This document shows positions 4,713 through 62,555 of a stretch of DNA of 64,000 nt, piece after piece. The stretch lies in NCBI RefSeq assembly GCF_017304615.1, contig NZ_JAFKLZ010000001.1, positions 682,001-746,000 on the forward strand, in the 5' to 3' direction. Every line of letters starts with the position of its first letter. The first letter of the stretch is position 1. This DNA comes from Sphingomonas sp. GTDB lineage: Bacteria > Pseudomonadota > Alphaproteobacteria > Sphingomonadales > Sphingomonadaceae. The position numbers were made by a program, and so were the translations under genes. The notes under the pieces were generated by a model. The model ran no database searches, was not told the origin of the DNA, and saw only the letters and a list, made by a program, of their open reading frames with translations.

Positions 4713-4739
4713 GCTTCGCACCCGAGCGCTATTGTGTCT

Positions 4740-4798: not shown

Positions 4799-4817
4799 GA
4801 AAACGAGATGCCGACTG

Positions 4818-41787: not shown

Positions 41788-41838
41788 AACGGCGCGTCGC
41801 CTGTCGGTTTGCATTTAGCCTTCCCCGCATCTCCCTCG

Positions 41839-41917
41839 TGCGCGAATTTTTGCACACCGGGTATTTGCACGAAACGTCCCCGATTTAGCGGCCGCTTTGC
41901 ACCACGCGTCCCCGATT
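41839..41917. repeat. Insertion-sequence end-like direct repeats
   Basis: TTTGCAC-GAAA-CGTCCCCGATT (41864-41885) and TTTGCAC-CACG-CGTCCCCGATT (41896-41917) are 22-bp direct repeats, 32 bases apart, and a partial third TTTGCAC lies at 41849. Repeated terminal blocks are typical of IS21-type ends. No transposase is present, so this is a scar or remote end. It sits at the left edge of the accessory region. The rest of 41788-42024 has no gene. Confidence 0.45.
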
Positions 41918-42024
41918 GGAATTCCGTCCTTCGCACGCCATCTTGGTTCCGCAGAATCCGGTGGCACCTCAGGCGGCTAGATCGGCACTGCGCGAGGTGC
42001 TGTGACTGCGAGGAGGGGCAAGCC

Positions 42025-42852
42025 ATGATCGAGGGTCAGGACGAGCTGCGGGACCTGTTGCCCGACGCGTTCTCGAAGCAGCTGCTCGATGGCGGTCTCG
42101 ACGTTCTGGGGACGGCAAACCCGATCAGGGCCCATCTCTTTGCGGCAGCGATGCGGGAAGTGATTACCTATTTGCTGCACACGATGGCTCCAGACGACGA
42201 CGTGCAGGCTGCGTCGTGGTTCAAAGCGGAGGCGGACAAGCCGACGCGCCGACAGCGCAGCACGTTCGCGGTCCAAGGCGGCCTCTCCGACAGCCTCGTG
42301 ACGAAGCTCGGCATCGATGCCTCGGAGATGCATCGGCAGATGGCGGCCGAGATGGCGGAGCTCAACAAGCGAACTCACGTAAAGCCAGGCACGCTGCTGT
42401 CGGAGGCCAATGAGATCGAAGAGTTCGCAACCGACGTCGTCGCGGCGGTCGCCGAGTTCCTGCAGGCCGTGGCCGACATGCGTGATGCAGTCGCTGACGC
42501 GGTGATCCATGGAGCGAGCGAGCAAGTGTTCGAGTCGTTCCTCCAGGAATCGAACGACATGATCGACCTGCTGTCGACGCATTCGTTCGTCGAGCAGGTC
42601 GATGTGTTGGAGCTGAGGGTCGTGAAGATCGGCGCGCACGAGATCACATACGAGGCGGAGGGGACCGTCTACGTCGAGCTCAACTACGGGTCCGGGTCAG
42701 ACCGTGCCGCCGGCGACGGCGCGACGATGAACGACGACTATCCGTTCAAGTGCCGGCTGACGGGTGGGGTTGAGAAGCTCGTAGAATTGCATGACGTGTT
42801 CGACATGGAGGTCGACACGTCCTCTTTCTACGAGGATGGGGAGGAGGAGTGA
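42025..42852 (+). CDS. pPIWI-associating nuclease-like protein
   Basis: 275 residues; strong RBS AGGAGGGG 6 bases before ATG 42025. The central block AMREVITYLLHTMAPDDDVQ, then WFKAEADKPTRRQRSTFAVQGGLSDSLV and EMAELNKRTHVKPGTLL resembles the helical part of predicted pPIWI-associating nucleases (pP_pnuc group), known from prokaryotic Argonaute-like systems. The C-terminal part contains a beta-rich region (THEITYEAEGTVYVEL-like). No pPIWI gene is visible in the window. The resemblance is recalled, not searched. Operon with the next gene (4-base overlap). Confidence 0.5.
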   Translation: MIEGQDELRDLLPDAFSKQLLDGGLDVLGTANPIRAHLFAAAMREVITYLLHTMAPDDDVQAASWFKAEADKPTRRQRSTFAVQGGLSDSLVTKLGIDASEMHRQMAAEMAELNKRTHVKPGTLLSEANEIEEFATDVVAAVAEFLQAVADMRDAVADAVIHGASEQVFESFLQESNDMIDLLSTHSFVEQVDVLELRVVKIGAHEITYEAEGTVYVELNYGSGSDRAAGDGATMNDDYPFKCRLTGGVEKLVELHDVFDMEVDTSSFYEDGEEE

Positions 42853-43664
42853 CGCATCCGTTCGTCGACCAGCCGTCGGGCTCGCGGGTGCTGGTGGTCG
42901 CAAGGTTCGACATGGTGCGGCTCGCCGCCGACCTGCGGACCGATGGCAGGCATCCCGACCTCGTCAAGGCGGTGGAGCGCGCGGCGTCTGCTGGCTCGAC
43001 CCGCGACGACCTTCGGACCGCTCTCGTGTCTCTCGATCGCATACTGGAGATGCAGGCCGAGACGGGCGACGACGGAGCGGTTGCGGTGGCTCGGGGCGAT
43101 GGCGTGGTGGCCGGAGCGTTGTTCACCCAGGCCGTCATTCTCTACGCGCGCGCCACGGCGACGGGATCCGACCGGCCCAAGCTGCTGGGCGAGGCGAAGC
43201 TCTCTGCGGAGGAGCGCGCGGTCCACGACGAGGCGATCGCGCTGCGTAGCGGCTGCATCGCGCACTTCGGACGTGGCGAGGACCTGACGGACGGCCCGAT
43301 GTTCAGGGAGGCTGTCCTGTTCAACCTGCTCCTCGTCGATGGCGCACCCAAGAAGCAGGTCTCCGTTTTTTCGACGCGGGCACATCACAAGGTGGCGTTC
43401 GCGGCGCGTCTGGCGCCTCTAATTGAGCGGCGACTCAAGGAGATCGCCGACCGCATCGACCGCCTGTTCGAAGCCGTCGACGTCGAGCTGGAGCGTGCGG
43501 GCCGAGAGGACGCGGACCTGCGTGAGTCGATGGGACGCTACGAATTCGACGTCGATGCATTCGCCGGGTCGGCGGAAGGAGCGGCGGCTCTCCGCCTCCA
43601 GCTCGCGTCCGGCACCGCCATCGACATGGACTACGTCGTCAGGGTGCCGAAGCCGGCCGGCTGA
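42849..43664 (+). CDS. Hypothetical protein, partner of pPIWI-nuclease-like gene
   Basis: 271 residues from GTG 42849, GTGA overlap with the gene upstream. Mostly helical; the middle (FTQAVILYARATATGS, then LRSGCIAHFGRGEDL) resembles the shape of HEPN-type helical bundles with an R-x4-H-like motif, but this is weak. C-terminal half has a long helix rich in Arg/Glu (ERRLKEIADRIDRLFEAV). Not recognised. The coupled start suggests function together with the nuclease-like protein. Its stop overlaps the converging gene by 26 bases. Confidence 0.55.
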   Translation: MTHPFVDQPSGSRVLVVARFDMVRLAADLRTDGRHPDLVKAVERAASAGSTRDDLRTALVSLDRILEMQAETGDDGAVAVARGDGVVAGALFTQAVILYARATATGSDRPKLLGEAKLSAEERAVHDEAIALRSGCIAHFGRGEDLTDGPMFREAVLFNLLLVDGAPKKQVSVFSTRAHHKVAFAARLAPLIERRLKEIADRIDRLFEAVDVELERAGREDADLRESMGRYEFDVDAFAGSAEGAAALRLQLASGTAIDMDYVVRVPKPAG

Positions 43665-44193
43665 CCTGGCCCGTCTGCTGGTCAGGTCCGAAGAGCAGGT
43701 CGGCGACCTCCGAAATCGTCGTCGCCTCCTGCATATTGTTGGGCTTGATCACCCGGTGATTGTTCCGAAGCGGTCGCGCGCCGGTCGCGTCGGGTCGGGT
43801 GCTTCGCGCTACCGGTGCGTCAGGCGGAATGACGAAAGATGTGCCGAGCGGTCCGCCCAGGAAGCGGAACTTCTCCAGCGCATACGTGACGGGATCATAG
43901 GTGATCCAGACGAGACATCCGGACTGCTTGGTGGTCAGGAGGAGGCTGACGGTCTGGCGGCGCGTCCCGGACCCACGATACGACGATTTGAGCTGGATGT
44001 GGCGTGGAACGCCCCTGGTCTCGATGACGATGTCGTAGCCGTATGCATCGACGTCGCCGCGCAGCACCTCGAAGTCGATGTCGCGGCGGAGCAGCTCGGC
44101 GGTGAGATCAGCGAGGAAACGGTATTCCACGACCTTCTCGATCGTGTTCGATCGTTCGGGTCGGCCGAAGCCCTTCGGCGATGGTGCGTTCAC
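43639..44193 (-). CDS. PD-(D/E)xK nuclease-like protein
   Basis: 184 residues from GTG 44193, GTGA overlap with the upstream SRAP stop (a start at 44241 is possible but would overlap it further). DVDAYGYDIVIETRGVPRHI followed by QLKSS fits the D...ExK/QxK core of restriction-endonuclease-like folds, similar in layout to DUF4365-type proteins. A conserved-looking C-terminal tail follows. Last gene of the SOS-type operon. Fold assignment by motif only. Confidence 0.5.
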   Translation of the reverse strand: MNAPSPKGFGRPERSNTIEKVVEYRFLADLTAELLRRDIDFEVLRGDVDAYGYDIVIETRGVPRHIQLKSSYRGSGTRRQTVSLLLTTKQSGCLVWITYDPVTYALEKFRFLGGPLGTSFVIPPDAPVARSTRPDATGARPLRNNHRVIKPNNMQEATTISEVADLLFGPDQQTGQVSRPASAP

Positions 44194-44840
44194 GCCGTCA
44201 CCATCGGCGGTTCGTCCGCACGGGACGCCCGTGCCGACCACGGCTGGTCGGTCCGGTTCATCACGATCAGGTCATCGGGAAAGCATCGCGCCTGGAAGGC
44301 GAGCGCATCGTCGAACCCGCCGTCGAGCCAGGTGTCGTACTCGCTCGGGTGGAGGAGCACCGGCATGCGGTCGTGGACCGGACGGATCGCCTCGTTGCAG
44401 TCGGTCATGACGCCCGAATAGACCGGGCCCCATTCGTCGCTGATCCGCCAGAGCCCGGCCCATGCGAAGATCGGCTGATCCTTGACGGTGAACCAGGTGC
44501 GCGTCTTGGACCCCTTCGCACCCTCCGCCTCGGAAAACCCCGTGAGAGGGATCAGGCAGCGCCACTCGGGCTTGCGGGCGAGTCCGACCCACATGTTCTT
44601 GGTCATGTCCGCGACGTTGTTGACCGGCTTGGGCTTGCTTTCGGGCTTCATGGTCTTGAGCCGGAGCGGAAAGCCCCAGGTCATCGACTGCATGATCATC
44701 GCTCCGTCATGCTTTCGAACGACCATTCCGGGGGCGCCTGGATAGACCTCCTCCGGAGCGTTGGACAGCGCGGGGACTTCGACGCCGAAGTGGGCGGCGA
44801 CCTCGGCCGCGCTCTTCCGGACGGTGTAGAGATTGCACAT
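44190..44840 (-). CDS. SRAP (YedK/HMCES-type) abasic-site crosslinking protein
   Basis: 216 residues. Met-Cys start (MCNLYTVRKS) provides the N-terminal Cys2 that links covalently to abasic sites in single-stranded DNA; RCLIPLTGFSEAEG has the catalytic Glu and RPVHDRMPVLL the His. TWGFPLRL and SKTRTWFTV fit the family. Length is normal. It protects or repairs abasic sites at forks. All three catalytic residues are present, unlike in its paralogue at 45821. Confidence 0.88.
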   Translation of the reverse strand: MCNLYTVRKSAAEVAAHFGVEVPALSNAPEEVYPGAPGMVVRKHDGAMIMQSMTWGFPLRLKTMKPESKPKPVNNVADMTKNMWVGLARKPEWRCLIPLTGFSEAEGAKGSKTRTWFTVKDQPIFAWAGLWRISDEWGPVYSGVMTDCNEAIRPVHDRMPVLLHPSEYDTWLDGGFDDALAFQARCFPDDLIVMNRTDQPWSARASRADEPPMVTA

Positions 44841-44868
44841 CGCCGGAGCCTATCAGAACCGATGGACG

Positions 44869-45183
44869 TCAGGAATGGTCGTCGGAAAGGCCGGCGAACC
44901 AGTCCGCATACGGCGTGTTCCGCGCCATGTGCCGGTTGAGGTCCGGAGCACCGTCGTCCCACCAGACGGGCCCGCGCTCCCCGAGTGCGCGTTTCGCACG
45001 GTCGACTGTGGCGTGTGCTTCGCTTTCGGCCAGTTCGTCGGATGAGCGCTTTGCGGCGCCGATCGCGCGGCGCGCTTCCATCAGCTGGTCGACAAAGCTC
45101 TGGCGTTCGCCGGCGTCAAGCGTCGGGTCCGACATGCGCCAGAGCCGCCCGCGAACGACGAAGTAGCGGCCGTCCGGCGTCAC
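44869..45183 (-). CDS. Small conserved hypothetical protein, AlkB neighbour
   Basis: 104 residues from GTG 45183 (a TTG at 45219 gives 116 and an 11-base overlap with alkB). Core GRYFVVRGRLWRMSDPTLD and VWWDDGAPDLNRHMARNTPY; a family of small proteins with WWDDGAPD is recurrent next to alkB and SRAP genes in alphaproteobacteria, to my recollection. No known domain. Within the tight operon. Confidence 0.65.
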   Translation of the reverse strand: MTPDGRYFVVRGRLWRMSDPTLDAGERQSFVDQLMEARRAIGAAKRSSDELAESEAHATVDRAKRALGERGPVWWDDGAPDLNRHMARNTPYADWFAGLSDDHS

Positions 45184-45208
45184 CGGATGCCCGCCTGCGA
45201 GGCGATTG

Positions 45209-45784
45209 TCAGGCTGCAAGCCGACGCGCCTTCTCGGTGAAGCTGCGGAACGTGATCGACCAGCGCGTCCGCTCCATCGGCGAGATGCTGTGCTCCCATC
45301 CTAGCCTTGCCTCGCCTGCGAGACGGTAGATCGATCTTGGGGCGAGCGGTGCCGATGCGCGGTCGAAGCCGACGGGCCGCCTGCGGCGGAAGCGCATCGT
45401 GGCGGGCTCGCCCAGCGATACGCCGATGACGTCCTCGAACACGGGCCGGTCGCGGTGCCAGCCGATGCCGGCGCCCTGATCGTATCGGATGAGAAGCGCC
45501 TGCACGAGTTCGGGGGCGGACAGCGCCGCGAACGCGGCAGCGCGGTCGCGAAGCGGCAGCAGCCAATCCGGGAGCGGATCCGTGGCCTCGAACCGGTTGT
45601 TGTCGAAGTCGTAGAGCCAGCCGAACGAGCGGGTGAGGCGGTTGCCGAGCCAGCCTTGGAAACGGAACGGCGACAGGGCCTCGGCGTCGATCCGCGCCAT
45701 CAGGTCGGCCTCGTCGGACGCGTCGATGAAGTCGTCCAGGATCGATAGTCCGGGAATGATGGGCGTGTCGAAGAGATCGGTCAT
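45209..45784 (-). CDS. alkB: AlkB-type 2-oxoglutarate/Fe(II) dioxygenase
   Basis: 191 residues from ATG 45784. GIGWHRDRPVFEDVIGVSLG carries the HxD iron ligands, WEHSISP the distal His, and TRWSITFRS the 2-oxoglutarate Arg motif. AlkB enzymes remove 1-methyladenine and 3-methylcytosine lesions by oxidation. Position in an SOS-boxed operon fits repair. Confidence 0.88.
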   Translation of the reverse strand: MTDLFDTPIIPGLSILDDFIDASDEADLMARIDAEALSPFRFQGWLGNRLTRSFGWLYDFDNNRFEATDPLPDWLLPLRDRAAAFAALSAPELVQALLIRYDQGAGIGWHRDRPVFEDVIGVSLGEPATMRFRRRRPVGFDRASAPLAPRSIYRLAGEARLGWEHSISPMERTRWSITFRSFTEKARRLAA

Positions 45785-45820
45785 CGACGTGGACGCTGCG
45801 ACCATCGGGGGAGACGGTCG

Positions 45821-46480
45821 TCAGAGAAGCGCAACTTGGGTCTTGCCGGATGCTGGCGGCTTGCCGCTGCGCCAGCGATCATCGGTGTGTTCGATGATCG
45901 TCCGCCCGGTGGGCAGGGGCGGTCGGAACTGGAAGGCGATCACGTCCTGGATCGTGCCGTGCAGCCAGCGCTCGTATTCGTGCTGGCCAAGCAGCGCCGG
46001 CTGCCGGTCGTTGTAGGGCTCGACAAGCGCGTTGGCGGACATCGTCATGCCGGCATAGACCGGGCCGAACTCGGGTGTGTTGCGGCAGAAGCCGGCCCAC
46101 GCGGACAACGGCTCGCCGTCCACGGAGAACCAGGTCCGCGTCTTAGAGCCGGGGTCGCCGTCAGGATTGGCGAAGTGCGTCAGCGGAATGAGGCATCGAT
46201 ACTTCGGATCGACGACAAGGCGCTCCCACATCGGGTTGGTCAGATCGGCGAGCAAACCGAGACGCTGCGGCGGCTCGTTGCGGATCGCCATTTCGGTCGT
46301 CTTGCGCGGGAAGCCCCACGTCATCGTCCTCAGCACCCGCCTGCCGCCGACCTCAACCACCACGAGGCCGGGGTCGCCCTCGATCGTCTCGACAGGCACG
46401 TCCATGCTCACGCCGAGTTCGGTTCCGAACTGCAGGTTGATCTCGCTGATCGTCGCCGTGTTCGCATAGAGCCGTGACAT
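45821..46480 (-). CDS. SRAP-fold protein lacking catalytic residues
   Basis: 219 residues. It aligns along its length with SRAP (TWGFPRKTTEMAI, YRCLIPLTHF, SKTRTWFSVDGEPLSAW, AFQFRPP), but starts MSRLYANT, so Cys2 is Ser; the Glu of GF-x-E is missing (HFANPDG); and the His of HDRMP is Asn (YNDRQP). A GGAGA site 7-8 bases before ATG 46480 supports that start. So it cannot perform the usual crosslink chemistry; a DNA-binding or regulatory role is inferred. First gene of the operon. Confidence 0.75.
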   Translation of the reverse strand: MSRLYANTATISEINLQFGTELGVSMDVPVETIEGDPGLVVVEVGGRRVLRTMTWGFPRKTTEMAIRNEPPQRLGLLADLTNPMWERLVVDPKYRCLIPLTHFANPDGDPGSKTRTWFSVDGEPLSAWAGFCRNTPEFGPVYAGMTMSANALVEPYNDRQPALLGQHEYERWLHGTIQDVIAFQFRPPLPTGRTIIEHTDDRWRSGKPPASGKTQVALL

Positions 46481-46519
46481 GGCCCGAGTCTCCATTCGAT
46501 TCCGACCCGCACTAGCACG

Positions 46520-46534
46520 GAACAAGTGGAGAAC
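46520..46534 (-). promoter_or_regulatory. LexA box of the SRAP/AlkB operon
   Basis: On the gene strand GTTC-TCCACTT-GTTC, an exact GTTC-N7-GTTC repeat, 40 bases upstream of ATG 46480. It would bring five genes (46480 down to 43639) under SOS control. 46535-46729 contains only the promoter space of the diverging RES gene. Confidence 0.8.
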
Positions 46535-46729
46535 AAAATAGAGTAGGGCGGGTTCCGCCCGGCCTAGCGGCCCGTTGCGCCGGCGCCGAACCCGACCACC
46601 ATGACTGATTGCCGCGCTCCCCCTTCGGCAAGCTGGCGGCGAGCGCCGGCGAGCGTGTATAGGTCGAAACTGTGGGCGCCACGGAGGCTAAGAAGAGTTA
46701 GAGCCGAGGTCGACATTGCGGAGAGGGAC

Positions 46730-47533
46730 GTGTTGGAATTTCCTCGGTGGGACAGCTATTCCCGGTTTGCACGCGCGGTCAGGTCCTGTCGGCGCTACGT
46801 GCTCGGCGAAGACGAGCGCGACTTCCTAGCCACGGTGCTCGCGACGATTCAGGACCGTGACGTCGAGTTCAAGGCAGGCAAGATCTTCTATCGCGCGCAG
46901 CTGGGCGTCGAGATCGTCGATCGCGAGGACGACGAGGGCAACTGGGTCGGGGAGGACGTGGTAGGCTTCGACGCCGCGCGTATGAAGCCGCTTTCCGATC
47001 GGGCACGGGAGGGGCGCGCGAACCCCACCGGCATCCCGGCGCTCTACGTGGGGACCAGCGCCGAGACTGCAATCTCCGAGGTCAGGCCGTGGATCGGCGC
47101 CGACGTGTCGGTGGCGATGTGCCGGCTTCTGGGGCCGATGCGGACGCTCGACTTGACCAAGGGGCACGGAAAGTCGTCATTCGCAGGCGCAGTGTTCCGC
47201 CATGTCCTCGGAGACGGGCCGCTAACCGCCGAAGACAAGGCGAAGGCGGTCTGGATAGACATCGACAATGCTTTCTCGGAACCCGTGACCTCCTCCGACG
47301 ACCGTGCCGACTACGCGCCCACGCAGGTCCTTGCCGAACTGTTTCGGAGCGCGGGGTATGACGCGATCGGCTACAAGAGCCACTTCGGCGACGATGGCGA
47401 TCGGCGTGGCTACAATCTCGCTATCTTCGATCCCGGGATGGTGGAGATAGCGAGCTGTGTTCCGTATCAGGTGAAGTCGATCAAGGTAGTCGCGGAGCAG
47501 AACGGCACGCCGTGGACTAAATCGAGGGGGTGA
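46730..47533 (+). CDS. RES-domain protein
   Basis: 267 residues from GTG 46730 with GGAGAGG just upstream (TTG 46733 or an upstream ATG at 46601 are alternatives). RES motifs: KIFYRAQLG (Arg), ALYVGTSAETAISEVRPW (Glu-Ser pair), YAPTQVLAELFRSAGYDAIGYKS. RES-type toxins hydrolyse NAD+ and normally pair with a Xre-family antitoxin; no such gene is adjacent. May act alone or be a different RES use. Confidence 0.75.
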   Translation: MLEFPRWDSYSRFARAVRSCRRYVLGEDERDFLATVLATIQDRDVEFKAGKIFYRAQLGVEIVDREDDEGNWVGEDVVGFDAARMKPLSDRAREGRANPTGIPALYVGTSAETAISEVRPWIGADVSVAMCRLLGPMRTLDLTKGHGKSSFAGAVFRHVLGDGPLTAEDKAKAVWIDIDNAFSEPVTSSDDRADYAPTQVLAELFRSAGYDAIGYKSHFGDDGDRRGYNLAIFDPGMVEIASCVPYQVKSIKVVAEQNGTPWTKSRG

Positions 47534-48630: not shown

Positions 48631-49923
48631 ATGCATCGCTATATCACGGCCTTGTTGGCCGTGGCGTCGTGCGCTTCGATGGCGCACGCGCAGACGTCGC
48701 CGCCGGTGGCGACGATCGTCCCGTCCCCCGTTGCGGCGGGGCCGGCTCTCACGTTGGATGACGCCCTCCGCATGGGAGGTGCCGCATCGCCATCTGTTGA
48801 CTCCGCCAATGCCGGGGTCCGTGCAGCCGATGCGGCTCGGACGGTCGCCGGCCTCCGGCCCAATCCAACCGCATCCGCCACGGCCGAGAACGTCGTCGGG
48901 ACGGGCCCCTATCGCGGATTCTCGCAGTCGGAGACGACCGTGTCGCTTTCGCTTCCCATCGAGCTTGGCGGCAAGCGTTCCGCTCGCCTTGCGGTGGCTG
49001 GGGCGCAGGGTGTCAGGGCACGGCTGGAAGTCGTGATCGCCGAGGCGGATCTGCGGCTCAGCATAACGCAGACCTACATCCGCGCGCTTGCCGCCGAGAA
49101 GCGCGTCACCATCGCCGAGGAGCAGTTGGGCTTTGCGTCCGAAGGCTTGCGGATCGCTCGTGACCGCGTTCAGGTCGGCGCGACGTCGCCGTTGGACGAA
49201 CAGCGCGCGGCTGTGACTGAGGTCAACGCGCGGACCGCGCTTGAGACGGCGCGCGGCGACGCGGCGGCCGCACGGAACGCGTTGAGCCTGCTGCTCGGCC
49301 AGCCGATCGACCAGCCGCTCGACATGGCCTGGTTCGACCGGCTGGGCGGCGGTGGTGGCTACGGCCCATCGGCACCATTCGAGGTCGAGGGCACGCTGGC
49401 GCTGGCGGCTGCCAGAGCCGACGTCGCCACGGCCGACGCCGGTGTGCGGCTGGCGCGATCGCAGCGCGTGCCCGATCTAACCGTCAGCACCGGCATCCGG
49501 CGACTGCAGGGCACCGGCGACAACGCCGCAGTGGTCGGCGTGTCGATCCCGATCCCGCTGTTCAACAGCGGCCGGGCGCAGCTCGGCCAGGCGATGGCCC
49601 TCAGAGACCAGGCGGAAGCCCGCCGTCGGCTGGCCGTCCTCGAGGCGCGGACCGAGATCGGCAACGCGCAGACGGAGGTTGCCAATGCTGCAGCGCGGGC
49701 GCGGGCGTCGGGACCTGCGATGGCTGCGGCCATGGAGGCCGCGCGAATTGCCCGCATCGGCTACGGCCAGGGCAAGTTCGAGCAGATCGTCCTCATCGAC
49801 GCCGAGCGCACCCTTTCCGAAACCCGTGCGTCCGCCGTGGACGCCTTCGCCGCCTATCACGACGCGCTGGCGCGTCTCGCCCGCCTGACGGCTGCGGCCC
49901 CCAATTCCGGAGACATCAAATGA
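48631..49923 (+). CDS. czcC: Outer-membrane metal efflux channel CzcC-like
   Basis: 430 residues; signal peptide MHRYITALLAVASCASMAHA, AGGAG before the ATG. TolC-type helical hairpins with repeated ARLEVV/ARTALE motifs, SLPIELGGKRSARLAVAG and TVSTGIRRLQGTGDNAAVVGVSIPIPLFNSGRAQLGQA-type half repeats. Exit duct of the CzcCBA efflux complex. Stop overlaps czcB by 4 bases (ATGA). Confidence 0.85.
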   Translation: MHRYITALLAVASCASMAHAQTSPPVATIVPSPVAAGPALTLDDALRMGGAASPSVDSANAGVRAADAARTVAGLRPNPTASATAENVVGTGPYRGFSQSETTVSLSLPIELGGKRSARLAVAGAQGVRARLEVVIAEADLRLSITQTYIRALAAEKRVTIAEEQLGFASEGLRIARDRVQVGATSPLDEQRAAVTEVNARTALETARGDAAAARNALSLLLGQPIDQPLDMAWFDRLGGGGGYGPSAPFEVEGTLALAAARADVATADAGVRLARSQRVPDLTVSTGIRRLQGTGDNAAVVGVSIPIPLFNSGRAQLGQAMALRDQAEARRRLAVLEARTEIGNAQTEVANAAARARASGPAMAAAMEAARIARIGYGQGKFEQIVLIDAERTLSETRASAVDAFAAYHDALARLARLTAAAPNSGDIK

Positions 49924-51074
49924 ATCTGAACGACAAGCGCGCGGTCGGCGGCATCGCCGCCGCCGTGCTCGTGGCGGCGGTGGGCGGCTTCTCCGTCGCA
50001 CGCTGCTCGAACGACTCGCCCAAGGCCGACGTCGCCGCCAAGCCCGAACCCGAGCCGGCCGCGCCCGACACCTTGTCGATGACCGCCACTGCGGTGACCG
50101 CAGCCGGGATCGAGACCGAGACAGTCTCCGCTGGCGGTCTCGGTGCGGAGATCATAGCGACCGCGACCGTGGCGCCGTCACCCGGCGGCGAGGCGCTCGT
50201 CACCGCCCGCGCGGGCGGTGCGGTCACGCGCATCTTCAAGCGGATCGGCGATCCAGTCCGCGTCGGCGAGACGCTGGCGATCGTGGAGAGCCGCGATGCG
50301 GCGGGCATCGTCGCCGAGCGCAGCACCGCAAACGCCAAGCTGGTGCTTGCACAGAAGGCGCTTGCCCGCGAGCGCTTCCTCTACAAGGAGCGCGTCTCGG
50401 CCAAGGTCGAGCTCGAGCGCGCCGAGGCGGAAGCGGCGGCGGCCGAGGCCGAGCTCCGCCGCGCGCAGGCGGCGGCCAGCGCTGCCGGCGTCACCGGTGA
50501 CGGACGCGGCGTCGTGGTGCGAAGCCCGATCTCCGGGCGTGTCAGCGCGGAGAGCGTGACGCTCGGCGCATTCGTCCAGCCCGAGGCCGAGCTGTTCCGC
50601 GTGTCGGACGCGAGCCGAATCCAGGTCGAGGCCGCGATCCCGGCGGCCGACGCTCAGCGCGTGGCTTCCGGTGATCGGGCGATCGTCGAGCTGCCCGATG
50701 GTCGGACGGTCGATGCGACCGTCCGGTCCGTTACAACTGCGTTGAACGGCGAGACGCGGACGGCGACGGCGGTGCTCGACGTTCCCGGCGGGCTTCAGCC
50801 CGGCCTCGCTGTCCGCGTCCGGTTGAAGCCGCAGCGCGGCGCAATGACGTCGGCGATCGTGCTGCCCGAGGACTCGGTTCAGACGGTCGACGGCCGGGAC
50901 AAGGTGTTCGTGCGGACCGGTAGCGGCTTCCGCGCCGTGGCTGTGACCCTCGGCCGTCGATCGGCCGGGCGCGTCGAGATCGTGTCCGGTCTTAAGCCCG
51001 GCCAGCAGGTCGCGACCAAGAACGCATTCCTCCTGAAGGCGGAGCTTTCCAAGGGCTCGGGCGAGGAGGAATAG
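49920..51074 (+). CDS. czcB: CzcB-like RND periplasmic adaptor
   Basis: 384 residues. Membrane/signal helix (GGIAAAVLVAAVGGFSVARC), lipoyl half ARAGGAVTRIFKRIGDPVRVGETLAIVES, coiled coil of Glu/Ala, then VRSPISGRVSAESVTLGAFVQPEAELFRV. The HlyD-type adaptor joins CzcA to CzcC. Ends 3 bases before czcA. Confidence 0.87.
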   Translation: MNLNDKRAVGGIAAAVLVAAVGGFSVARCSNDSPKADVAAKPEPEPAAPDTLSMTATAVTAAGIETETVSAGGLGAEIIATATVAPSPGGEALVTARAGGAVTRIFKRIGDPVRVGETLAIVESRDAAGIVAERSTANAKLVLAQKALARERFLYKERVSAKVELERAEAEAAAAEAELRRAQAAASAAGVTGDGRGVVVRSPISGRVSAESVTLGAFVQPEAELFRVSDASRIQVEAAIPAADAQRVASGDRAIVELPDGRTVDATVRSVTTALNGETRTATAVLDVPGGLQPGLAVRVRLKPQRGAMTSAIVLPEDSVQTVDGRDKVFVRTGSGFRAVAVTLGRRSAGRVEIVSGLKPGQQVATKNAFLLKAELSKGSGEEE

Positions 51075-51077
51075 ACC

Positions 51078-54000
51078 ATGATCGCGAACCTCATTTCTCT
51101 GTCCGTCCGCGCGAGATGGGCGGTGCTCCTCATCTTTCTCGTCGTGGCGGGCCTCGGCCTTTGGCAGCTGACGAAGCTGCCGATCGACGCGGTGCCGGAC
51201 ATCACGAACCGCCAGGTGCAGATCAACACGGTCGAGCGCGGACTTTCGCCGATCGAGATCGAGAAGCGCGTGACCTTCCCGATCGAGACGGCGCTGGCCG
51301 GCATCCCGGGGCTCGAGACCACCCGGTCGCTGTCCCGGAACGGCTTCAGCCAGGTCACGGCGATCTTCACCGATCAGACGGATCTCTACTTCGCCCGTCA
51401 GCAGGTCAGCGAGCGACTGACTCAGGCGCGCGATACCCTGCCCGATGGCGTTCAGCCGCAGATCGGTCCGGTCACGACCGGTCTCGGCGAGGTGCTCATG
51501 TATTCGGTCGGCTACGCCCAGCCGAACGGCAAGGGCGCGAAGGTCGTGGACGGCCAGCCCGGCTGGCAGTCGGATGGCAGCTACCTGACCCCGGAGGGCG
51601 ACCGGCTGACCACTGAGGTCGCCAAGGCGGGATACCTCCGCACTGTGCAGGACTGGATCATCCGACCGCAGTTGCGCACGGTTCAGGGCGTCGCGGGCGT
51701 CGATTCGATCGGCGGCTACGCGAAGACGTTCGTTGTCGAACCCGATCCGACCAAGCTCAGCGCCTACGGCATCTCCTATTCGGAGCTGGCCAAGGCGCTG
51801 GAGGCAGCGAACCTCGCTGTCGGCGCCAACTACTTCAACCGCAGCGGCGAGGCCTATCTGGTGCGCGCCGACGCACGCGTCCGCTCGATCGACGAGATCC
51901 AGACGGCGATCGTCGCGACGCGGAGCGGGGTTCCCGTCGCCGTGAAGGACGTCGCCACGGTGTCGATCGGCGGCGATCTTCGCACCGGAGCGGCGAGCAT
52001 GAACGGCCAGGAGGCCGTGGTCGGCACGGCGCTCATGCTGATCGGCGAAAACAGTCGCATCGTCGCCAAGGCGGTGGCGGAGCGGCTCGACCAGGTGACG
52101 AAGTCGCTTCCGCCCGGCGTCAAGGTGACGGTGGTGCTGGACCGGTCGAAGCTGGTGAACGCGACGGTCGCGACCGTCGAGCGCAACCTCGTCGAAGGGG
52201 CGCTTCTCGTGGCAGCGGCTTTGTTTATGCTCCTCGGCAATTGGCGGGCGGCGATCATCGCGGTGCTGGTCATTCCGTTCTCGTTCCTGATGATGGCGAT
52301 GGGGATGAACGCGTTCCGGGTGCCCGGAAACCTGATGAGCCTCGGTGCGCTGGACTTCGGCCTCATCGTCGACGGGGCGGTGATCATCATCGAGAACTGC
52401 CTAGCGCGCCTCGCACACCGGCAGGAGCACGAAGGCCGGCTGCTGACACTGCGTGAGCGGCTGGAAGAGACGATGCGGGCGGCGCAGGAGATGATCCGGC
52501 CGACCGTGTTCGGACAGGCCATCATCCTGCTCGCATTCGCGCCGCTGCTGATGTTCACCGGGGTCGAGGGCAAGACGTTCTCGCCGATGGCGATCACGAT
52601 CATGCTGGCGCTCGGCGCGGCCTTCATCCTGGCGCTGACCTTCGTGCCCGCGATGATCGCGATCCTCATCCGGGGGCGCGTCGCCGAAAAGGAGGTTTGG
52701 CTGATACGCAAGACCAAGGAGCGATATCTGCCGCTCCTCGACAAGGCGGTCGCCCGGCCGTGGACGTTCATCGTCGGCGGTCTCGCGTTCTTCCTGCTCT
52801 GCATTCCCGTGTTCGGCTGGCTTGGGCAGGAGTTCATTCCCCAGCTCGACGAGAAGAACGTCGCTCTCGCGTCGACCCGCGTGCCGTCCGTCAGCCTTGA
52901 ACAGTCGCTGAGCATGCAACGTGGCGTCGAACGCGCGGTGAAGGCCCTGCCGGAGGTGGAGACGATGTTCTCCAAGACCGGCACGGCAGAGGTCGCGACG
53001 GACCCGATGCCGCCGAACGTATCCGACGGCTTCGTGATCCTGAAGCCGCAGGAGGAGTGGCCGGCGGGCGTCAAGACTAAGGCCGACGTCCTCGCTCGCA
53101 TTGAGAAGGCGAGCGGCGGTCAGCTCGGTCAGACCTTCGAGGTCAGTCAACCGATCCAGCTGCGCTTCAACGAGCTGATCGCGGGCGTTCGCGGCGACGT
53201 CGCCATCAAGCTCTATGGCGACGACCTTGAGAAGATGAGCGCAGCGGCGGCGGACATCGTCCGCACGATTCAGGCGATACCGAGCGCGGCCGACACGAAG
53301 GCCGAGCAGGTGGGCGGTGCGCCCACCCTCGACGTCCGCTTCGACCGCAGCGCCATCGCCAGATACGGCCTCACCGTCGAGGAGGTCGCCGACACGGTGT
53401 CCGCCGCGATGGGCGGTCGTGAATCCGGCCTGCTGTTCGAAGGCGATCGCCGGTTCGAGATCTCGGTGCGGGTGCCGGACGGCACGCGGGCGAGCCTCGA
53501 CCAGGTGGCCGCCTTGCCCGTCATGTTGCCGCAGGCGGGGACTGCGCCTCGGCGGTCGGTTCCGCTTTCGGCCGTCGCGCAGTTCCGGTTCAGCGATGGC
53601 CTCAACCAGATCAGCCGGGAGAACGGAAAGCGTCGGGTGGTCATCCAGACCAACGTGCGCGGACGCGACGTCGGTTCGTTCGTCGCCGAGGCACAGGCCA
53701 AGGTCGACAAGGTGAGGCTGCCCTCTGGATCCTATCTGGAATGGGGCGGGCAGTTCCAGAACCTGCAGGCCGCATCTCAGCGCCTGTCTCTGGTCGTGCC
53801 GCTCTGCTTCGCTGCGATCTTCGGCCTGCTCTACATGGCGTTGGGCGGGTTGCGGCGCGCGGCGGCGGTGTTCCTCGCGGTTCCGTTGGGTCTCGCGGGC
53901 GGCGTCTTCACCCTGGCGGCGACCGGCATCGCCTTCTCGGTGTCGGCGGCGGTCGGGTTCATCTGCCTGGCCGGGGTCGCGGTGCTGAACGGGCTCGTCG

Positions 54001-54335
54001 TCATGTCGGCGATACGCGAGCGGCTGGAGTCCGGCGCGGGGCTGGTCGAAGCAATCCGCGACGGCATGGCGGACAAGATGCGGGCGGTCGTGATGACCGG
54101 GTTCGTGCCCGCCATCGGGTTCGTGCCGATGGCGCTCGCCCACGGGACGGGCGCGGAAGTCCAGAAGCCGCTCGCGATCACGGTGATCGGTGGGCTCGTC
54201 GCCGCGACCATCCTCACGCTGCTGGTGCTGCCGGCGATCGCCAAGGTCGTTCTGGCGATCCGGTCCCGCCGCGATGGAAGTCCGCCGCGACCGCCAGCGG
54301 GCGAGAACGGCACCATGGAAACCGGAGGACGTTGA
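51078..54335 (+). CDS. czcA: Heavy-metal RND efflux transporter CzcA-like
   Basis: 1085 residues. The HME-RND region LGALDFGLIVDGAVIIIENCL has the DFG-x-VD-x-E metal-type motif of proton-driven divalent-cation pumps (Co, Zn, Cd). Twelve-helix architecture, with two periplasmic loops and VPLGLAGGVFTLAATGIAFSVSAAVGFICLAGVAVLNG in the second half. The specific metal cannot be told. Confidence 0.9.
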   Translation: MIANLISLSVRARWAVLLIFLVVAGLGLWQLTKLPIDAVPDITNRQVQINTVERGLSPIEIEKRVTFPIETALAGIPGLETTRSLSRNGFSQVTAIFTDQTDLYFARQQVSERLTQARDTLPDGVQPQIGPVTTGLGEVLMYSVGYAQPNGKGAKVVDGQPGWQSDGSYLTPEGDRLTTEVAKAGYLRTVQDWIIRPQLRTVQGVAGVDSIGGYAKTFVVEPDPTKLSAYGISYSELAKALEAANLAVGANYFNRSGEAYLVRADARVRSIDEIQTAIVATRSGVPVAVKDVATVSIGGDLRTGAASMNGQEAVVGTALMLIGENSRIVAKAVAERLDQVTKSLPPGVKVTVVLDRSKLVNATVATVERNLVEGALLVAAALFMLLGNWRAAIIAVLVIPFSFLMMAMGMNAFRVPGNLMSLGALDFGLIVDGAVIIIENCLARLAHRQEHEGRLLTLRERLEETMRAAQEMIRPTVFGQAIILLAFAPLLMFTGVEGKTFSPMAITIMLALGAAFILALTFVPAMIAILIRGRVAEKEVWLIRKTKERYLPLLDKAVARPWTFIVGGLAFFLLCIPVFGWLGQEFIPQLDEKNVALASTRVPSVSLEQSLSMQRGVERAVKALPEVETMFSKTGTAEVATDPMPPNVSDGFVILKPQEEWPAGVKTKADVLARIEKASGGQLGQTFEVSQPIQLRFNELIAGVRGDVAIKLYGDDLEKMSAAAADIVRTIQAIPSAADTKAEQVGGAPTLDVRFDRSAIARYGLTVEEVADTVSAAMGGRESGLLFEGDRRFEISVRVPDGTRASLDQVAALPVMLPQAGTAPRRSVPLSAVAQFRFSDGLNQISRENGKRRVVIQTNVRGRDVGSFVAEAQAKVDKVRLPSGSYLEWGGQFQNLQAASQRLSLVVPLCFAAIFGLLYMALGGLRRAAAVFLAVPLGLAGGVFTLAATGIAFSVSAAVGFICLAGVAVLNGLVVMSAIRERLESGAGLVEAIRDGMADKMRAVVMTGFVPAIGFVPMALAHGTGAEVQKPLAITVIGGLVAATILTLLVLPAIAKVVLAIRSRRDGSPPRPPAGENGTMETGGR

Positions 54336-54336
54336 G

Positions 54337-54669
54337 ATGACCGAGATGAGACTCTTGCGGATCTACACCGACGAAGCCGCCTACTTCGGCGATCGCCGGG
54401 TCTACGAGGAGATCGCCGCGCGTGCGAGAGGCGGCGGCATGGCGGGTGCGACGGTGGTGCAGGCGCTGTTCGGCTTCGGCCGGTCGTCGCACACGCATCG
54501 GCGGCATGTGCTCGAGGACGAGCAGTCGCTAGTGATCGAGATCGTCGACGCGGAGGCGCGCTTGCGCGCCTTCGCCACGGCGCTCGCCGACATCGACGGC
54601 ATCGGGCTGATCACGCTCGAGACGGTCGAGGTCATCGGTCGCATACAAACCGGGGAGGTAGTCAAGTGA
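54337..54669 (+). CDS. DUF190 domain protein
   Basis: 110 residues. The DUF190 pattern: MRLLRIYTDEAAYFGDR, YEEIAARARGGGMAGATV, then QALFGFGRSS and LVIEIVDAEARLRAF. Small PII-like domain proteins, often beside ion transporters (including CrcB and efflux genes). Starts 1 base after the czcA stop and overlaps the next gene by 4 bases. Confidence 0.85.
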   Translation: MTEMRLLRIYTDEAAYFGDRRVYEEIAARARGGGMAGATVVQALFGFGRSSHTHRRHVLEDEQSLVIEIVDAEARLRAFATALADIDGIGLITLETVEVIGRIQTGEVVK

Positions 54670-55637
54670 GCGGACATTCCGGTTCGCACGACCACGCTGG
54701 ACACGATCATGGCGATGGCGGTCATGGTCACGCCCATGGAGGGCTCGGGCACGTCCACGCGCCGAAGAGCTTCGGGCGCGCCTTCGCGATCGGCACGACG
54801 CTCAACCTCGGCTTCGTGGTCGTCGAGGGCGCCTACGGCATTGTTGCGGGTTCGATGGCGCTCCTTGCCGATGCGGGGCACAACCTCAGCGACGTGTTGG
54901 GACTGCTGATCGCCTGGGGCGCGGCGACGCTGGCGAAACGGCAGCCGAAGGGGAAGTACACCTACGGACTTCGAAGCTCGTCGATACTGGCCGCCTTCCT
55001 CAACGCGCTGCTGCTGCTCGTGGCGATCACGGTCATCGCGGTCGAGGCGATCGGCCGCTTTTCCGAGCCGTCGCCGGTCGCCGGGACGATGGTGATGATC
55101 GTCGCGGGGATCGGAATACTGATCAATGGTGCGACCGCGCTATTGTTCATGAGCGGGCGGAAGGGCGACCTCAATATCAACGGCGCCTTTCTCCATATGG
55201 CGGCCGATGCCGCCGTCTCGGCGGGGGTCGTGGCGGCCGGCTTCGCGATCGTCCAGACCGGCTGGTCTTGGATCGATCCGGTCGTCAGCCTGGTGATCGT
55301 CGCCGTGATCGCGATCGGGACGTGGGGTCTGCTGCGCGACTCGGTGAACATGAGCCTGCAGGCTTCGCCGCCGGGCCTCGATCCGCAGATGGTCGGCGCC
55401 TTCCTGGAGGGGCAGCCGGGCGTGACGGCCGTGCACGACCTGCACGTCTGGCCGCTCAGCACGACCGAGACCGCGCTGACCGTCCACCTCGTGATGCCCG
55501 GCGGGTATCCAGGCGACCGGTTCACGGCCGATCTCGCCATCATCTTGAGGCAGCAGTTCGGCATCCATCACGCTACGGTGCAGATCGAGACCGATCCTGA
55601 CGCCGAATGCGTGCTCGCGCCGGACGACGTCGTATGA
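54666..55637 (+). CDS. czcD: CDF-family zinc/cobalt/cadmium exporter (CzcD-like)
   Basis: 323 residues from GTG 54666. His-rich N-terminus (SHDHAGHDHGDGGHGHAHGG), six membrane helices with LLADAGHNLSDVLGLL (HxxxD metal site) and ADAAVSAGVV, then C-terminal domain with HDLHVWPLSTTETALTVHL. Exports divalent metal from the cytoplasm by antiport. Coupled to DUF190. Confidence 0.9.
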   Translation: MSGHSGSHDHAGHDHGDGGHGHAHGGLGHVHAPKSFGRAFAIGTTLNLGFVVVEGAYGIVAGSMALLADAGHNLSDVLGLLIAWGAATLAKRQPKGKYTYGLRSSSILAAFLNALLLLVAITVIAVEAIGRFSEPSPVAGTMVMIVAGIGILINGATALLFMSGRKGDLNINGAFLHMAADAAVSAGVVAAGFAIVQTGWSWIDPVVSLVIVAVIAIGTWGLLRDSVNMSLQASPPGLDPQMVGAFLEGQPGVTAVHDLHVWPLSTTETALTVHLVMPGGYPGDRFTADLAIILRQQFGIHHATVQIETDPDAECVLAPDDVV

Positions 55638-55671
55638 TGGCCGGGCTCATGCAAAGCGGGGAGACGTCGCG

Positions 55672-56355
55672 ATGACCGGATTGACCAGCACGATCATTCC
55701 CGTGCTCGCGGTGCTGCTGGGCGCGCTGGTCTCGGTTTGGCGGCGTCCCGGCGAGGCCGTCGTTGCCGGCGTCCAGCACCTCGCCGCCGGCGTCGTGTTC
55801 GCTGCGGCCGCCGCCGAGATTCTGCCACAGGTGCTTCATGGAGGCTCGCCAGCCGCCACGTTGATAGGCGGGGCGATCGGCGTTGCCGTGATGCTCGGTC
55901 TCAAGGCGGCGGGATCGAGAATGACCGGTCCGGTCGCAATGCTCGGCGCGGTCGGGATCGACATACTGGTTGATGGGCTCGTGCTCGGCCTCGCGTTCGT
56001 TGCCGGCGAGAAGGCCGGTCGGCTGCTGACCATCGCATTGACGGTCGAGGTGCTGTTCCTGGGGCTGACGGTTACGGAGGCGCTGCAGGACAGGATCAGG
56101 TCGAAGGTCGCGATCATCGGCGCCACGCTCGGGATCGGCCTCCTGCTGCCCGTAGGCGCTTTGATCGCGACGCCGGTCGCCGCGCTCTCGCCTGCGATGA
56201 TCACGGCGTTCCTGAGCTTCGGACTAATGGCACTGCTCTATCTGGTCACCGAGGAACTGCTGGTCGAGGCCCACGAGAAGCCCGACACGCCACTGATCAG
56301 CGCGATGTTCTTCGTCGGCTTTCTCGGGCTGCTGTTGATCGAAGAGCTTTCCTAG
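55672..56355 (+). CDS. ZIP-family metal transporter
   Basis: 227 residues, about eight hydrophobic helices, with VQHLAAGVVFAAAAAEILPQVL (the His-containing ZIP signature helix) and VLFLGLTVTEAL. ZIP proteins usually import divalent metals; in a resistance operon the direction and metal are unclear. RBS GGGGAG precedes ATG 55672. End of the operon; a 13-bp-stem hairpin follows. Confidence 0.75.
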   Translation: MTGLTSTIIPVLAVLLGALVSVWRRPGEAVVAGVQHLAAGVVFAAAAAEILPQVLHGGSPAATLIGGAIGVAVMLGLKAAGSRMTGPVAMLGAVGIDILVDGLVLGLAFVAGEKAGRLLTIALTVEVLFLGLTVTEALQDRIRSKVAIIGATLGIGLLLPVGALIATPVAALSPAMITAFLSFGLMALLYLVTEELLVEAHEKPDTPLISAMFFVGFLGLLLIEELS

Positions 56356-56457: not shown

Positions 56458-57201
56458 TTAGCGGCGTGCGGTAGCGATTGCCGAATGATCGTCTTGTCGA
56501 CCGACGTCGCCTCGTGTCTTGCGCTCGGAGTATCGGTCGGTGAGCTGGCGCGCATGCGACCGCGTCAGCACGGTAAAGCGCACCAGCTCCTCCATAACGT
56601 CGACGATGCGATCATAATAGCTGGAAGGGCGCATGCGACCGTCTTCGCCGAATTCCTTGTAGGCCATCGCGACCGAGGACTGGTTGGGGATCGTGAACAT
56701 GCGCATCCAACGGCCGAGCAGACGGAGAGTGTTGACGGCGTTGAACGACTGCGACCCACCGGACACCTGCATCACCGCGAGAGTCCGCCCCTGCGTCGGC
56801 CGCATGCCTTTCATCTCGAGCGGCAGGTGGTCGATCTGCGCCTTCATGATTCCGGTGATCTGTCCATGGCGCTCGGGAGTGCACCACACCATACCCTCGG
56901 ACCACAGCGCGTGCTCGCGCAACTCGTGAACGGCGGGGTGGTCGTCGCCTCTCACCTGATCGGGAAGCGGCAGGTCCGATGGGTCGAAGATTCGCGTCTC
57001 GGCGCCAAACATCTGCAGCAGCCGCGCGGCTTCCTCCGCCGCCAGTCGCGAGAACGAGCGCTGCCGGAGCGACCCGTAGAGAAGAAGGATGCGCGGTGGC
57101 GGCTGGTCGTCGCCGAGTCCCGCAGCCGGGCGGGAGACGACGAATGCCGGGTCGAGCGCGGGCAGGATGTCTGCGTCGGTAAGCTGGCGGAGGCGGCTCA
57201 T
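56458..57201 (-). CDS. arsH: ArsH NADPH-dependent FMN oxidoreductase
   Basis: 247 residues. Flavodoxin-like FMN-binding start [35 protein letters not shown] and the [17 protein letters not shown] segment are ArsH hallmarks. ArsH oxidises trivalent organoarsenicals, or acts as a quinone/chromate reductase. ATG 57201 overlaps arsN2 by 4 bases; last gene of the ars operon. Confidence 0.92.
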
Positions 57202-57635
57202 GCGATTTCCTTGACGAGGTAGGCTGCGCTCCCGGGGCACAGCGTAGAGAATTGCGCCGTGGACCGTATCGCTTCGGGCGCGGCGGCACGGTCGGCGTCG
57301 CGGTAGCCGCGCGCGCGGAAGAAGTCGGCGGCGGTCGTCGTCAGGAGGTGGAGGCGCTCGACGCCGTCGCGACGCGCGACCGCTTCGGCGTGCGCCACGA
57401 GCAGGCCACCATGCCCTAGCCGCTTGCGGCTCGGCAGCACGACGAGCGAACGTAGCAGCCGGTTCGGACCATCGCCCTCGATGCCGACGAAGCCGATCGG
57501 CCCGTCCTCGTCAGAAAGCTCGAAGAGGCGGTGGCCTGGCTCGTTGAGGTCGTCGGTGGGTAGCCGCGCGGCATCGAGCGCCAACCGCATGACGTTGCGA
57601 TCGCCATCGGGAATGAGGGCGAAGGAGACCCTCAT
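57198..57635 (-). CDS. arsN2: ArsN2-type acetyltransferase
   Basis: 145 residues. GNAT fold: [51 protein letters not shown] and [17 protein letters not shown]; the [10 protein letters not shown] segment is typical of ArsN2, a GNAT family found in arsenic operons and thought to modify an arsenic-related substrate. It overlaps the aquaporin gene by 4 bases. Confidence 0.85.
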
Positions 57636-58300
57636 GTCGCCTGCACTGGATGGCCAGCGAAGAGCGTGTCGGCGATGACGTGCGCCGCGAGCGCGCCGAC
57701 GAGCTGGGCGGCGATGAAGGCAGGCACGGACGCAGGTGCTATTCCAGCGAACGTGTCGCTCAGCGAGCGCGCCACGGAGATGGCGGGATTGGCGAAGCTG
57801 GTGGACGATGTGAACCAATAGGCGGCGGTGATGTAGAGAGCGACGCTGGAAGCGACCGCCGCCGGCCGGACCTGCGTCGTGCCTAAGATGGTCAGGAGCA
57901 GACCGAAGGTAGCGACCGCCTCGCCGGTGAGCTGACCCGCACCACCCCGCGCCTTGGTCGACAGCTCGATAATGGGCACGTCGAACATCGCGTGTGCCAG
58001 CCAGACCCCCAGGACGCCGCCCGTGAGTTGGGCGGCGACGTATGCGATCGCCATGCGCGTCGAGAGGTGGCCGCGCAGCCTCATCACCAAGGTGACGGCC
58101 GGGTTGAGGTGCGCGCCCGAAACCGGTCCGAACATGGTTATGAGCACGAACAGGATGGCACCTGTCGCCAGCGTGTTGCCGAGCAGCGCGATGGCGACGT
58201 TCCCGGCGGCGAGCCGCTCGGCCATGATACCCGAGCCGATGACGGTCGCGAACAGCAGGAGGCTGCCCAGTGCCTCGGCGAGCAGCGCGCGACGCCTCAC
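57632..58300 (-). CDS. aqpS: Aquaporin of ars operon (arsenite channel, AqpS-like)
   Basis: 222 residues from GTG 58300 (GTGA overlap with arsC). Two NPA boxes are present: [11 protein letters not shown] and [12 protein letters not shown], with six helices. In S. meliloti a similar AqpS replaces ArsB as arsenite exit after ArsC reduction. No arsB or acr3 gene occurs here, so AqpS probably does the same. Confidence 0.88.
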
Positions 58301-59175: not shown

Positions 59176-62481
<3,306 letters not shown>

Positions 62482-62540
62482 GGGCGCGGATCCTGGCAAT
62501 TGGTTCAGATAGGTCCGCAGACAGTGGGTGCACGAATCAT

Positions 62541-62555
62541 GTTCCCATTATGTTC
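62541..62555 (-). promoter_or_regulatory. LexA box of dnaE2
   Basis: Plus strand reads GTTC-CCATTAT-GTTC, so the gene strand reads GAAC-ATAATGG-GAAC, an exact N7 SOS box 60 bases upstream of ATG 62481. A further GTTC at 62561 extends the cluster. The expected partners imuA and imuB are absent. Confidence 0.78.

Follow-up and report, generated by a model that had tools for sequence, protein, structure and literature searches.

A conserved SRAP paralogue with exchanged catalytic residues, paired with an intact SRAP and often preceded by a LexA-type box, in sphingomonads and rhizobia

In YedK of Escherichia coli, which belongs with human HMCES to the SRAP superfamily (Pfam PF02586), Cys2 is described as the nucleophile and Glu105 as the most important other residue; His160 aids ring opening, and Asn75 has a minor role at internal abasic sites (PMC9436759). 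Schiff bases can still be trapped with the YedK variants C2S and C2A, and YedK without the Cys2 thiol shows lyase activity (PMC9436759). The present study concerns a cluster of five genes in Sphingomonas sp., situated within a stretch of 64,000 nucleotides (positions 682,001 to 746,000, forward strand, of contig NZ_JAFKLZ010000001.1, assembly GCF_017304615.1; hereafter the window), the first gene of which encodes a SRAP paralogue with exchanged catalytic residues (dSRAP) and the fourth a SRAP with an intact site. dSRAP shares with YedK and HMCES the fold and a Pfam match above the cut-off, but differs from them in that Cys2, the Asn pair, Glu105 and His160 are all absent.

During anoxic growth of Sphingopyxis granuli TFA, a SRAP gene and alkB (genes 3204-3205) are induced 8-10 fold, the adjoining imuABdnaE2 genes (3201-3199) 11-12 fold, and lexA and recA 6 fold (PMC6472365), such that the co-induction of SRAP and alkB beside imuABdnaE2 is already known from anoxic Sphingopyxis. 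The gene classes are the same as in our cluster and are co-induced with lexA and recA, but a dead paralogue is not mentioned in the accessible part of that paper, and the likeness of genes 3204-3205 and 2555-2550 is judged by gene class. The ImuA-ImuB-DnaE2 mutasome resembles the cluster in its SOS control (predicted for the cluster), in being often mobile and in being built on catalytically inactive paralogues, ImuA and ImuB being described as such within the same cassette (PMC3765255); it differs in that the dSRAP cluster contains no polymerase and that the pseudoenzyme here is a SRAP. The occurrence of SRAP beside mutagenic polymerases is described in the same paper, in the available text of which the word AlkB is absent (PMC3765255), and error-prone polymerase genes moving with symbiotic genes are the topic of PMC4151985. 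SRAP-like proteins are furthermore described as putative regulatory subunits of UmuC-like polymerases (PMC12926913); the idea of a SRAP relative as putative translesion-polymerase regulator is shared with the reading given below, whereas those proteins are linked to UmuC-like polymerases and dSRAP to ImuAB-DnaE2, the two being compared by description only. A conserved, catalytically replaced SRAP was not found described in our literature search, in which subscription journals were thinly covered, such that this is not proof of its novelty.

dSRAP is a member of the SRAP superfamily by sequence (PF02586, E = 9.8e-10, 38.8 bits at a cut-off of 27.1) as well as by fold. With its predicted structure, Foldseek returned 21 matches at E <= 0.001 and template modelling scores (query) of 0.60-0.70, among them YedK, HMCES and the structural-genomics entries 1zn6, 2f20, 2aeg and 2bdv, the last of which we take to be a SRAP structure; E was 2.6e-10 for 1zn6 and around 1e-8 for YedK-DNA complexes with abasic DNA bound. 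The entries 2f20 and 2aeg match SRAPs by sequence, and 1zn6 is named a SRAP in PMC3765255. In the window copy, Ser2, Gly75-Leu76, Asn105 and Asn157 replace Cys2, the Asn-Asn pair, Glu105 and His160 (YedK numbers; alignment with neighbouring SRAPs). Because the search of PDB sequences with the dSRAP profile matched 2aeg and 2f20 only and gave no direct YedK alignment, this numbering relies on motif position and on 2aeg. Among 45 distinct dSRAP copies (including the window copy and that of locus L008, whose tail is out of frame), the Cys2 position is occupied by Ser in 44 and by Ala in one, the Glu105 position by Asn in 43, by Asp in one and by Gln in one, and the His160 position by Asn (Asn157) in all 45; at the positions of the Asn pair, Gly75 is found in 44/45 and Leu76 in 42/45. 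The five residues are conserved to 93-100%, versus a column mean of 72%. Because Cys2, the Asn pair, Glu105 and His160 are replaced, the normal thiazolidine cross-link would not be expected of dSRAP. The name dead SRAP, given to this gene in an earlier sequence-only reading of the window, is borne out inasmuch as the SRAP fold is kept and the catalytic residues are replaced; dSRAP lacks the catalytic site and yet is not simply decaying, its pocket residues being kept constant.

The SRAP encoded by gene 4 retains Cys2, Asn74-Asn75, Glu104 and His156 and is expected to form the covalent cross-link to abasic sites. The distinct SRAPs situated beside dSRAP keep Cys2, both Asn and Glu in 46/46 cases and His in 45/46; Cys2 is missing from one of 19 distinct control SRAPs, and the first Asn from one. 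Concerning the neighbourhoods, 63 dSRAP loci (the window, L033-L077 minus L070, and L108-L125) were clustered to 48 non-redundant ones, with the longest flanks as representatives, several of which end within 5 kb. L070 (29% identity) was left out as an ordinary SRAP; L004-L008 are identical with the genes counted under L122, L120, L123, L121 and L125; L009-L032 contain SRAPs but no dSRAP; and L147, on a plasmid, was added after the count. A second SRAP exists within 5 kb at 41 of the 48 loci (on the same strand in 41, within 300 bp in 26) versus none of 20 control loci (same-family SRAPs without dSRAP), which supports the claim of a dead SRAP beside a live one. The genome itself (3.34 Mb, 8 contigs) contains two SRAP matches, both within this cluster.

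On the minus strand of the window, five open reading frames are closely packed between 43639 and 46480, just as the sequence-only reading had it. These genes, the box upstream and the linked dnaE2 are:

46480-45821, minus strand: dSRAP, ATG start, 219 amino acids, Pfam PF02586
45784-45209, minus strand: AlkB-family Fe/2-oxoglutarate dioxygenase, ATG start, 191 amino acids (NCBIfam, PDB sequence match, motif residues)
44869-45219, minus strand: small conserved protein with no fold assigned, start TTG 45219 or GTG 45183
44840-44190, minus strand: SRAP (gene 4, the live partner), ATG start, 216 amino acids, Pfam PF02586 at 9e-25
44193-43639, minus strand: PD-(D/E)xK-like protein (gene 5; D...QxK), GTG start read from the sequence, sub-threshold Pfam match
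46520-46534, minus strand: LexA-type box, exact match to GTTC-N7-GTTC, 39 bases before the dSRAP ATG
59176-62499, minus strand: dnaE2 of the linked imuA/imuB/dnaE2 set, with its own box at 62541-62555 just upstream

The start of the PD-(D/E)xK-like gene and the stop of SRAP share 4 bases. The earlier reported gaps (36, 25 and 28 bases) hold if the small protein begins at GTG 45183, but not if it begins at TTG 45219, in which case it overlaps the end of AlkB by 11 bases; this TTG is at least as likely as the GTG, because the starts of the relatives precede a conserved TPDGRYF block. Packing and position suggest that the cluster is co-transcribed as an operon. In PADLOC, the five genes were without any match at E <= 1.

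The box, GTTCTCCACTTGTTC, is the exact motif formerly claimed to precede the first gene, at a spacing of 39 instead of 40 bases. The match by itself is weak, because the counts are little above chance or control: GTTC-N7-GTTC occurs 4 times in the window versus 1.81 expected (8 of 100 shuffles reach 4), and 91 times genome-wide versus 64 for the reversed control pattern. Its position is not due to chance, since a forward box is found in the 80 bp before dSRAP at 22/48 loci versus 0/20 control SRAPs, and within 600 bp at 30/48 versus 1/20. For 42 distinct dSRAP starts, 18 near boxes were seen where the density of boxes across the same loci predicts 0.23, and 17 of the 18 begin 50-65 bp before the dSRAP start, with varied spacer letters. 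The counts at the 48 and 20 loci were confined to coding-strand boxes and are therefore conservative; in L123, the box before dSRAP is in reverse orientation. The boxes at G000:C1:744541, 747563 and 751830 (L126) precede dnaE2, imuB and imuA, all of them opposite to the gene direction; in the studied genome, each of these three genes has one box, and imuA is situated around 3.6 kb from imuB. No sigma-70 consensus promoter was found in a promoter scan. A GTTC-N7-GTTC motif at a conserved upstream position is what is seen in alphaproteobacterial LexA regulons, and it supports the SOS-type control proposed before; LexA would accordingly be predicted to bind the box, and the operon to be induced by damage.

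At some loci, a further gene is situated between box and dSRAP. In L051 (4830-4991), this is an open reading frame of 53 amino acids with the tail ...ITDDEIPW, which resembles the acidic tail of single-strand-binding protein; L053 and L054 show the same box distance. In Sphingopyxis (L033 and L066, both 4535-4990, and L041, 4416-4994), a related gene of at least 151 amino acids ends 6-10 bases before dSRAP with ...EIPW or ...EIPY. On the other side of the window's box, a RES-domain gene (46601-47533, plus strand, Pfam 1.1e-16) is divergent from the operon, and the box, being between both, might therefore serve both. A tblastn match to this gene near dSRAP was obtained at 1/48 loci, the window itself; in L073, another gene, annotated RES NAD+ phosphorylase, adjoins dnaE2.

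AlkB dioxygenases are marked by the signature HxD...H...RxxxxxR. The AlkB of the operon has the same residue set (H110, D112, H165, R174 and R180, the Fe/2-oxoglutarate ligand residues, invariant in 8/8 sequences), but stays far below the equivalog cut-off (NCBIfam PRK15401: E = 5.9e-5, 22.6 bits versus 267) and hence belongs to a divergent subfamily; the closest PDB sequence is AlkB homologue 8 (9.9e-9), and a genome search with this AlkB matched only AlkB itself. Within 5 kb, AlkB is found at 14/48 dSRAP loci versus 0/20 controls, the small protein at 17/48 versus 1/20, and xth at 10/48 versus 0/20, with tblastn queries taken from the window or one plasmid, such that divergent homologues near controls could escape. 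The linkage of AlkB that had been noticed in the window is therefore recurrent, and the order dSRAP-AlkB-small protein is also present in L115, L116 and one Sphingobium plasmid. On another plasmid, AlkB and the small protein follow imuA-imuB-dnaE2 plus one further gene. Relatives of the small protein on other plasmids are situated at most 4 kb from Ku, beside imuA-imuB-dnaE2 with an exonuclease gene, or adjoining a SRAP next to a MobF relaxase. Its structural model (predicted local distance difference test, pLDDT, 73; predicted template modelling score 0.55) had no Foldseek match at E <= 0.001. The small protein is an uncharacterised repair-linked family, and together with AlkB it constitutes a second sub-module, overlooked in the sequence-only reading, beside the dSRAP-SRAP pair as the core of the module.

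The 35 dSRAPs included in a 93-member SRAP tree group in a single clade (support 100/99) on a long stem. Its sister row, L009, is a SRAP with Cys2 and Glu and with Gln for His, residues that might have served as a stepping stone; in L063, the dSRAP that diverges most, one Asn is retained and Glu is replaced by Gln. Among the 36 partners on the tree, 31 fall into one other clade, along with the control-type row L010, and the remaining five (four Sphingopyxis, one labelled Sphingomonadaceae) into a different SRAP clade; because of these five, the pairing seems to outlive a change of partner. The median ratio of nonsynonymous to synonymous substitution rates (dN/dS) is 0.28 for dSRAP and 0.21 for the partners (241 of 741 pairs, with dS of 0.05-1.2; the pairs are non-independent). 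A recent tandem duplication is ruled out, dSRAP being a separate deep clade with L009 as sister, and so is a phage gene, as matches (27-34% identity) are limited to 3 of 50,697 phage records.

Any imu gene (imuA, imuB or dnaE2) is found within 5 kb at 22/48 dSRAP loci versus 1/20 controls. In the studied genome, the imu genes are around 13 kb from the operon, a linkage also overlooked in the sequence-only reading, and imuB, which accounts for one of the genome's two ImuB-like matches, starts 14 bases inside the window end and continues beyond it. On a rhizobial plasmid, the start of dSRAP follows dnaE2 at a distance of 10 bases. Another genome of the genus (G585) has imuA-imuB-dnaE2 followed by arsenic-type genes, the box, dSRAP and SRAP; it is similar to the window in the arsenic-type genes between dnaE2 and dSRAP, and at this locus AlkB, the small protein and the nuclease had no match. 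The intervening part of the window contains metal-efflux-like open reading frames (TolC-, RND- and CDF-like; 48631-56355) and arsH/arsC-like ones (56458-58728), all named by reading.

dSRAP is a rare accessory gene, and the pair is carried on plasmids and accessory DNA in sphingomonads and rhizobia. A contig scan yielded 39 loci, 38 of them with dSRAP, from sphingomonads, rhizobia and one Rhodospirillales assembly. Any SRAP-type match is present in 104 plasmid records, 52 of them typed conjugative; among the 40 matches listed, 28 are dSRAP matches of at least 48% identity, another two, at 43%, may represent ordinary SRAPs, and the neighbourhoods of seven were examined. The plasmid copies L072, L075 and L076 adjoin type IV secretion, relaxase, rep or par genes, whereas the window copy is situated on a 1.6-Mb contig, inside a metal-resistance region.

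Concerning the fifth gene, the weak likeness behind the label PD-(D/E)xK-like exists, but as a sub-threshold match only (Pfam PDDEXK_5, E = 0.2, 12.1 bits versus a cut-off of 26.1), and the residues D49, D54, E58, Q67 and K69 are invariant in just four sequences, two of them near-identical. Since it is near dSRAP (within 5 kb) at 1/48 loci, the window alone, and at 0/20 controls, the gene is a chance neighbour and is ruled out as part of the module, contrary to the earlier proposal of a nuclease as member of the unit. Its relatives occur in 37 plasmid records, and the three examined have other neighbours; against the rejection, on the Sphingobium yanoikuyae plasmids NZ_CP115459 and NZ_CP139980 a relative (36% identity) co-occurs with dSRAP, at distances of about 7 and 11 kb. 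From the neighbourhoods at other loci, the window operon looks like the common dSRAP-SRAP pair with an inserted AlkB-small protein unit and an appended nuclease-like gene. Beyond close relatives, the pair is kept in sphingomonads and rhizobia, whereas the exact five-gene order is not; of the sequence-only interpretation as a whole, the SOS-type box, the dead and live SRAP pair and the AlkB linkage stand, and the membership of the nuclease falls.

The end of gene 5 is overlapped on the opposite strand by a gene of 271 amino acids without family match (42849-43664, plus strand), which in turn overlaps by four bases with a predicted pPIWI-associated nuclease gene (41809-42852, plus strand; Pfam pP_pnuc_1/2 at 8.7e-33 and 1.2e-29, PADLOC Aga_Nuclease at 2e-95). 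On a Neorhizobium plasmid, a relative is convergent to a SRAP gene.

We read the locus as a mobile module for damage tolerance under LexA control, with a non-covalent SRAP paralogue acting alongside an active SRAP, AlkB as add-on and a link to ImuAB-DnaE2, and assign this reading a probability of about one half. At abasic sites in single-stranded DNA, the catalytically complete SRAP would become covalently attached through a thiazolidine cross-link. dSRAP, as its conserved pocket suggests, may bind the same kind of DNA (a single strand or the junction of a stalled fork) but form no cross-link; together with the live SRAP and nearby ImuA-ImuB-DnaE2, it would be a non-covalent reader or regulator that decides between shielding, repair and copying over of the lesion. 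AlkB and the small protein would be a modular addition that strips alkyl lesions from the same strand; a putative role of the operon in the repair of alkylated or abasic DNA is plausible.

Several observations weigh against this reading. At strict thresholds, dSRAP is found in only 15/397 genomes and 11/96 genera of the family (E <= 1e-75) and in 1/385 genomes of the class, the window's own (E <= 1e-45). No forward box exists within 600 bp at 18/48 dSRAP loci and no SRAP within 5 kb at 7/48; in six of the 48 representatives the copy is short or split, and three of these six are among the seven that lack a SRAP. The copies in L061, L062, L065, L067, L068 and L071 look interrupted, and that in L008 (= L125) is out of frame after around residue 163; as the partner is full-length in L061, L062, L067 and L068, dSRAP appears dispensable in places. 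In G585, the partner SRAP has Asn for His. Moreover, the controls were picked from a table, not at random, and the dSRAP model is of moderate confidence (pLDDT 77.5), weakest at residues 71-90 and 131-160, which comprise three of the five exchanged positions.

The constancy of the exchanged residues also bears on what dSRAP does. It could be a re-tooled enzyme, which we consider unlikely: the amine of Ser2, after removal of Met, would attack the aldehyde and form a Schiff base, perhaps an oxazolidine, with a reversible cross-link or strand cleavage as outcome, or it would act on another lesion, bound through Asn105 and Asn157. Drift would be expected of a pocket that is merely dead, whereas Ser2 is kept in 44/45 copies and the two Asn in 43/45 and 45/45, and Schiff-base and lyase chemistry survives the loss of Cys2 in YedK C2S and C2A; this chemistry, however, needs Glu105, the lyase of C2A/E105Q being around 25-fold slower than that of C2A (PMC9436759), and dSRAP has Asn there. 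An antagonist, competing with the covalent SRAP for abasic single-stranded DNA, opening the site to DnaE2 and raising mutagenesis by the plasmid-borne mutasome, would agree with the imu linkage given above and with the description of HMCES as inhibitor of mutagenic translesion synthesis (PMC9436759); it would not need to keep the exact pocket residues, and imu genes are absent within 5 kb at 26/48 loci, such that this explanation is rather improbable.

That the module instead protects the mobile element, either its single-stranded DNA during conjugative entry or against a glycosylase-type defence making abasic sites, is suggested by the transfer and maintenance neighbours in L072, L075 and L076 and by the conjugative half of the plasmid records, but box position and imu linkage suit general damage control, and the location of the window copy on a large contig in a metal-resistance region likewise makes this very unlikely. 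An accidental pile-up of five genes in an accessory region, with dSRAP as a slowly decaying duplicate, would account for the solitary PD-(D/E)xK gene and for the interrupted dSRAP copies. Near-invariant replacement residues, a purifying dN/dS, the single deep clade and the kept pairing and box largely refute it for dSRAP-SRAP, and as a general explanation it is scarcely credible, although it holds for the PD-(D/E)xK gene.

SRAPs shield abasic sites by self-sacrificing cross-links, and a wider question is how a cell chooses between such a shield and error-prone bypass; for this question, a conserved and apparently cross-link-incompetent SRAP beside an active one, often with mutasome genes, offers a small portable system. 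In its furthest form, which we put forward tentatively and with more doubt than confidence, the damage-tolerance reading makes dSRAP the founder of a new functional SRAP class, a lesion-binding subunit with a rebuilt pocket that operates as a pair with a covalent SRAP in directing the mutagenesis by plasmid-borne ImuAB-DnaE2. If this is true, mobile elements would bring along a switch of their own, by which an abasic or alkylated template is either shielded or copied over, and a dSRAP that steers plasmid-borne mutagenesis would bear on how such elements alter the mutation rate of their new hosts.

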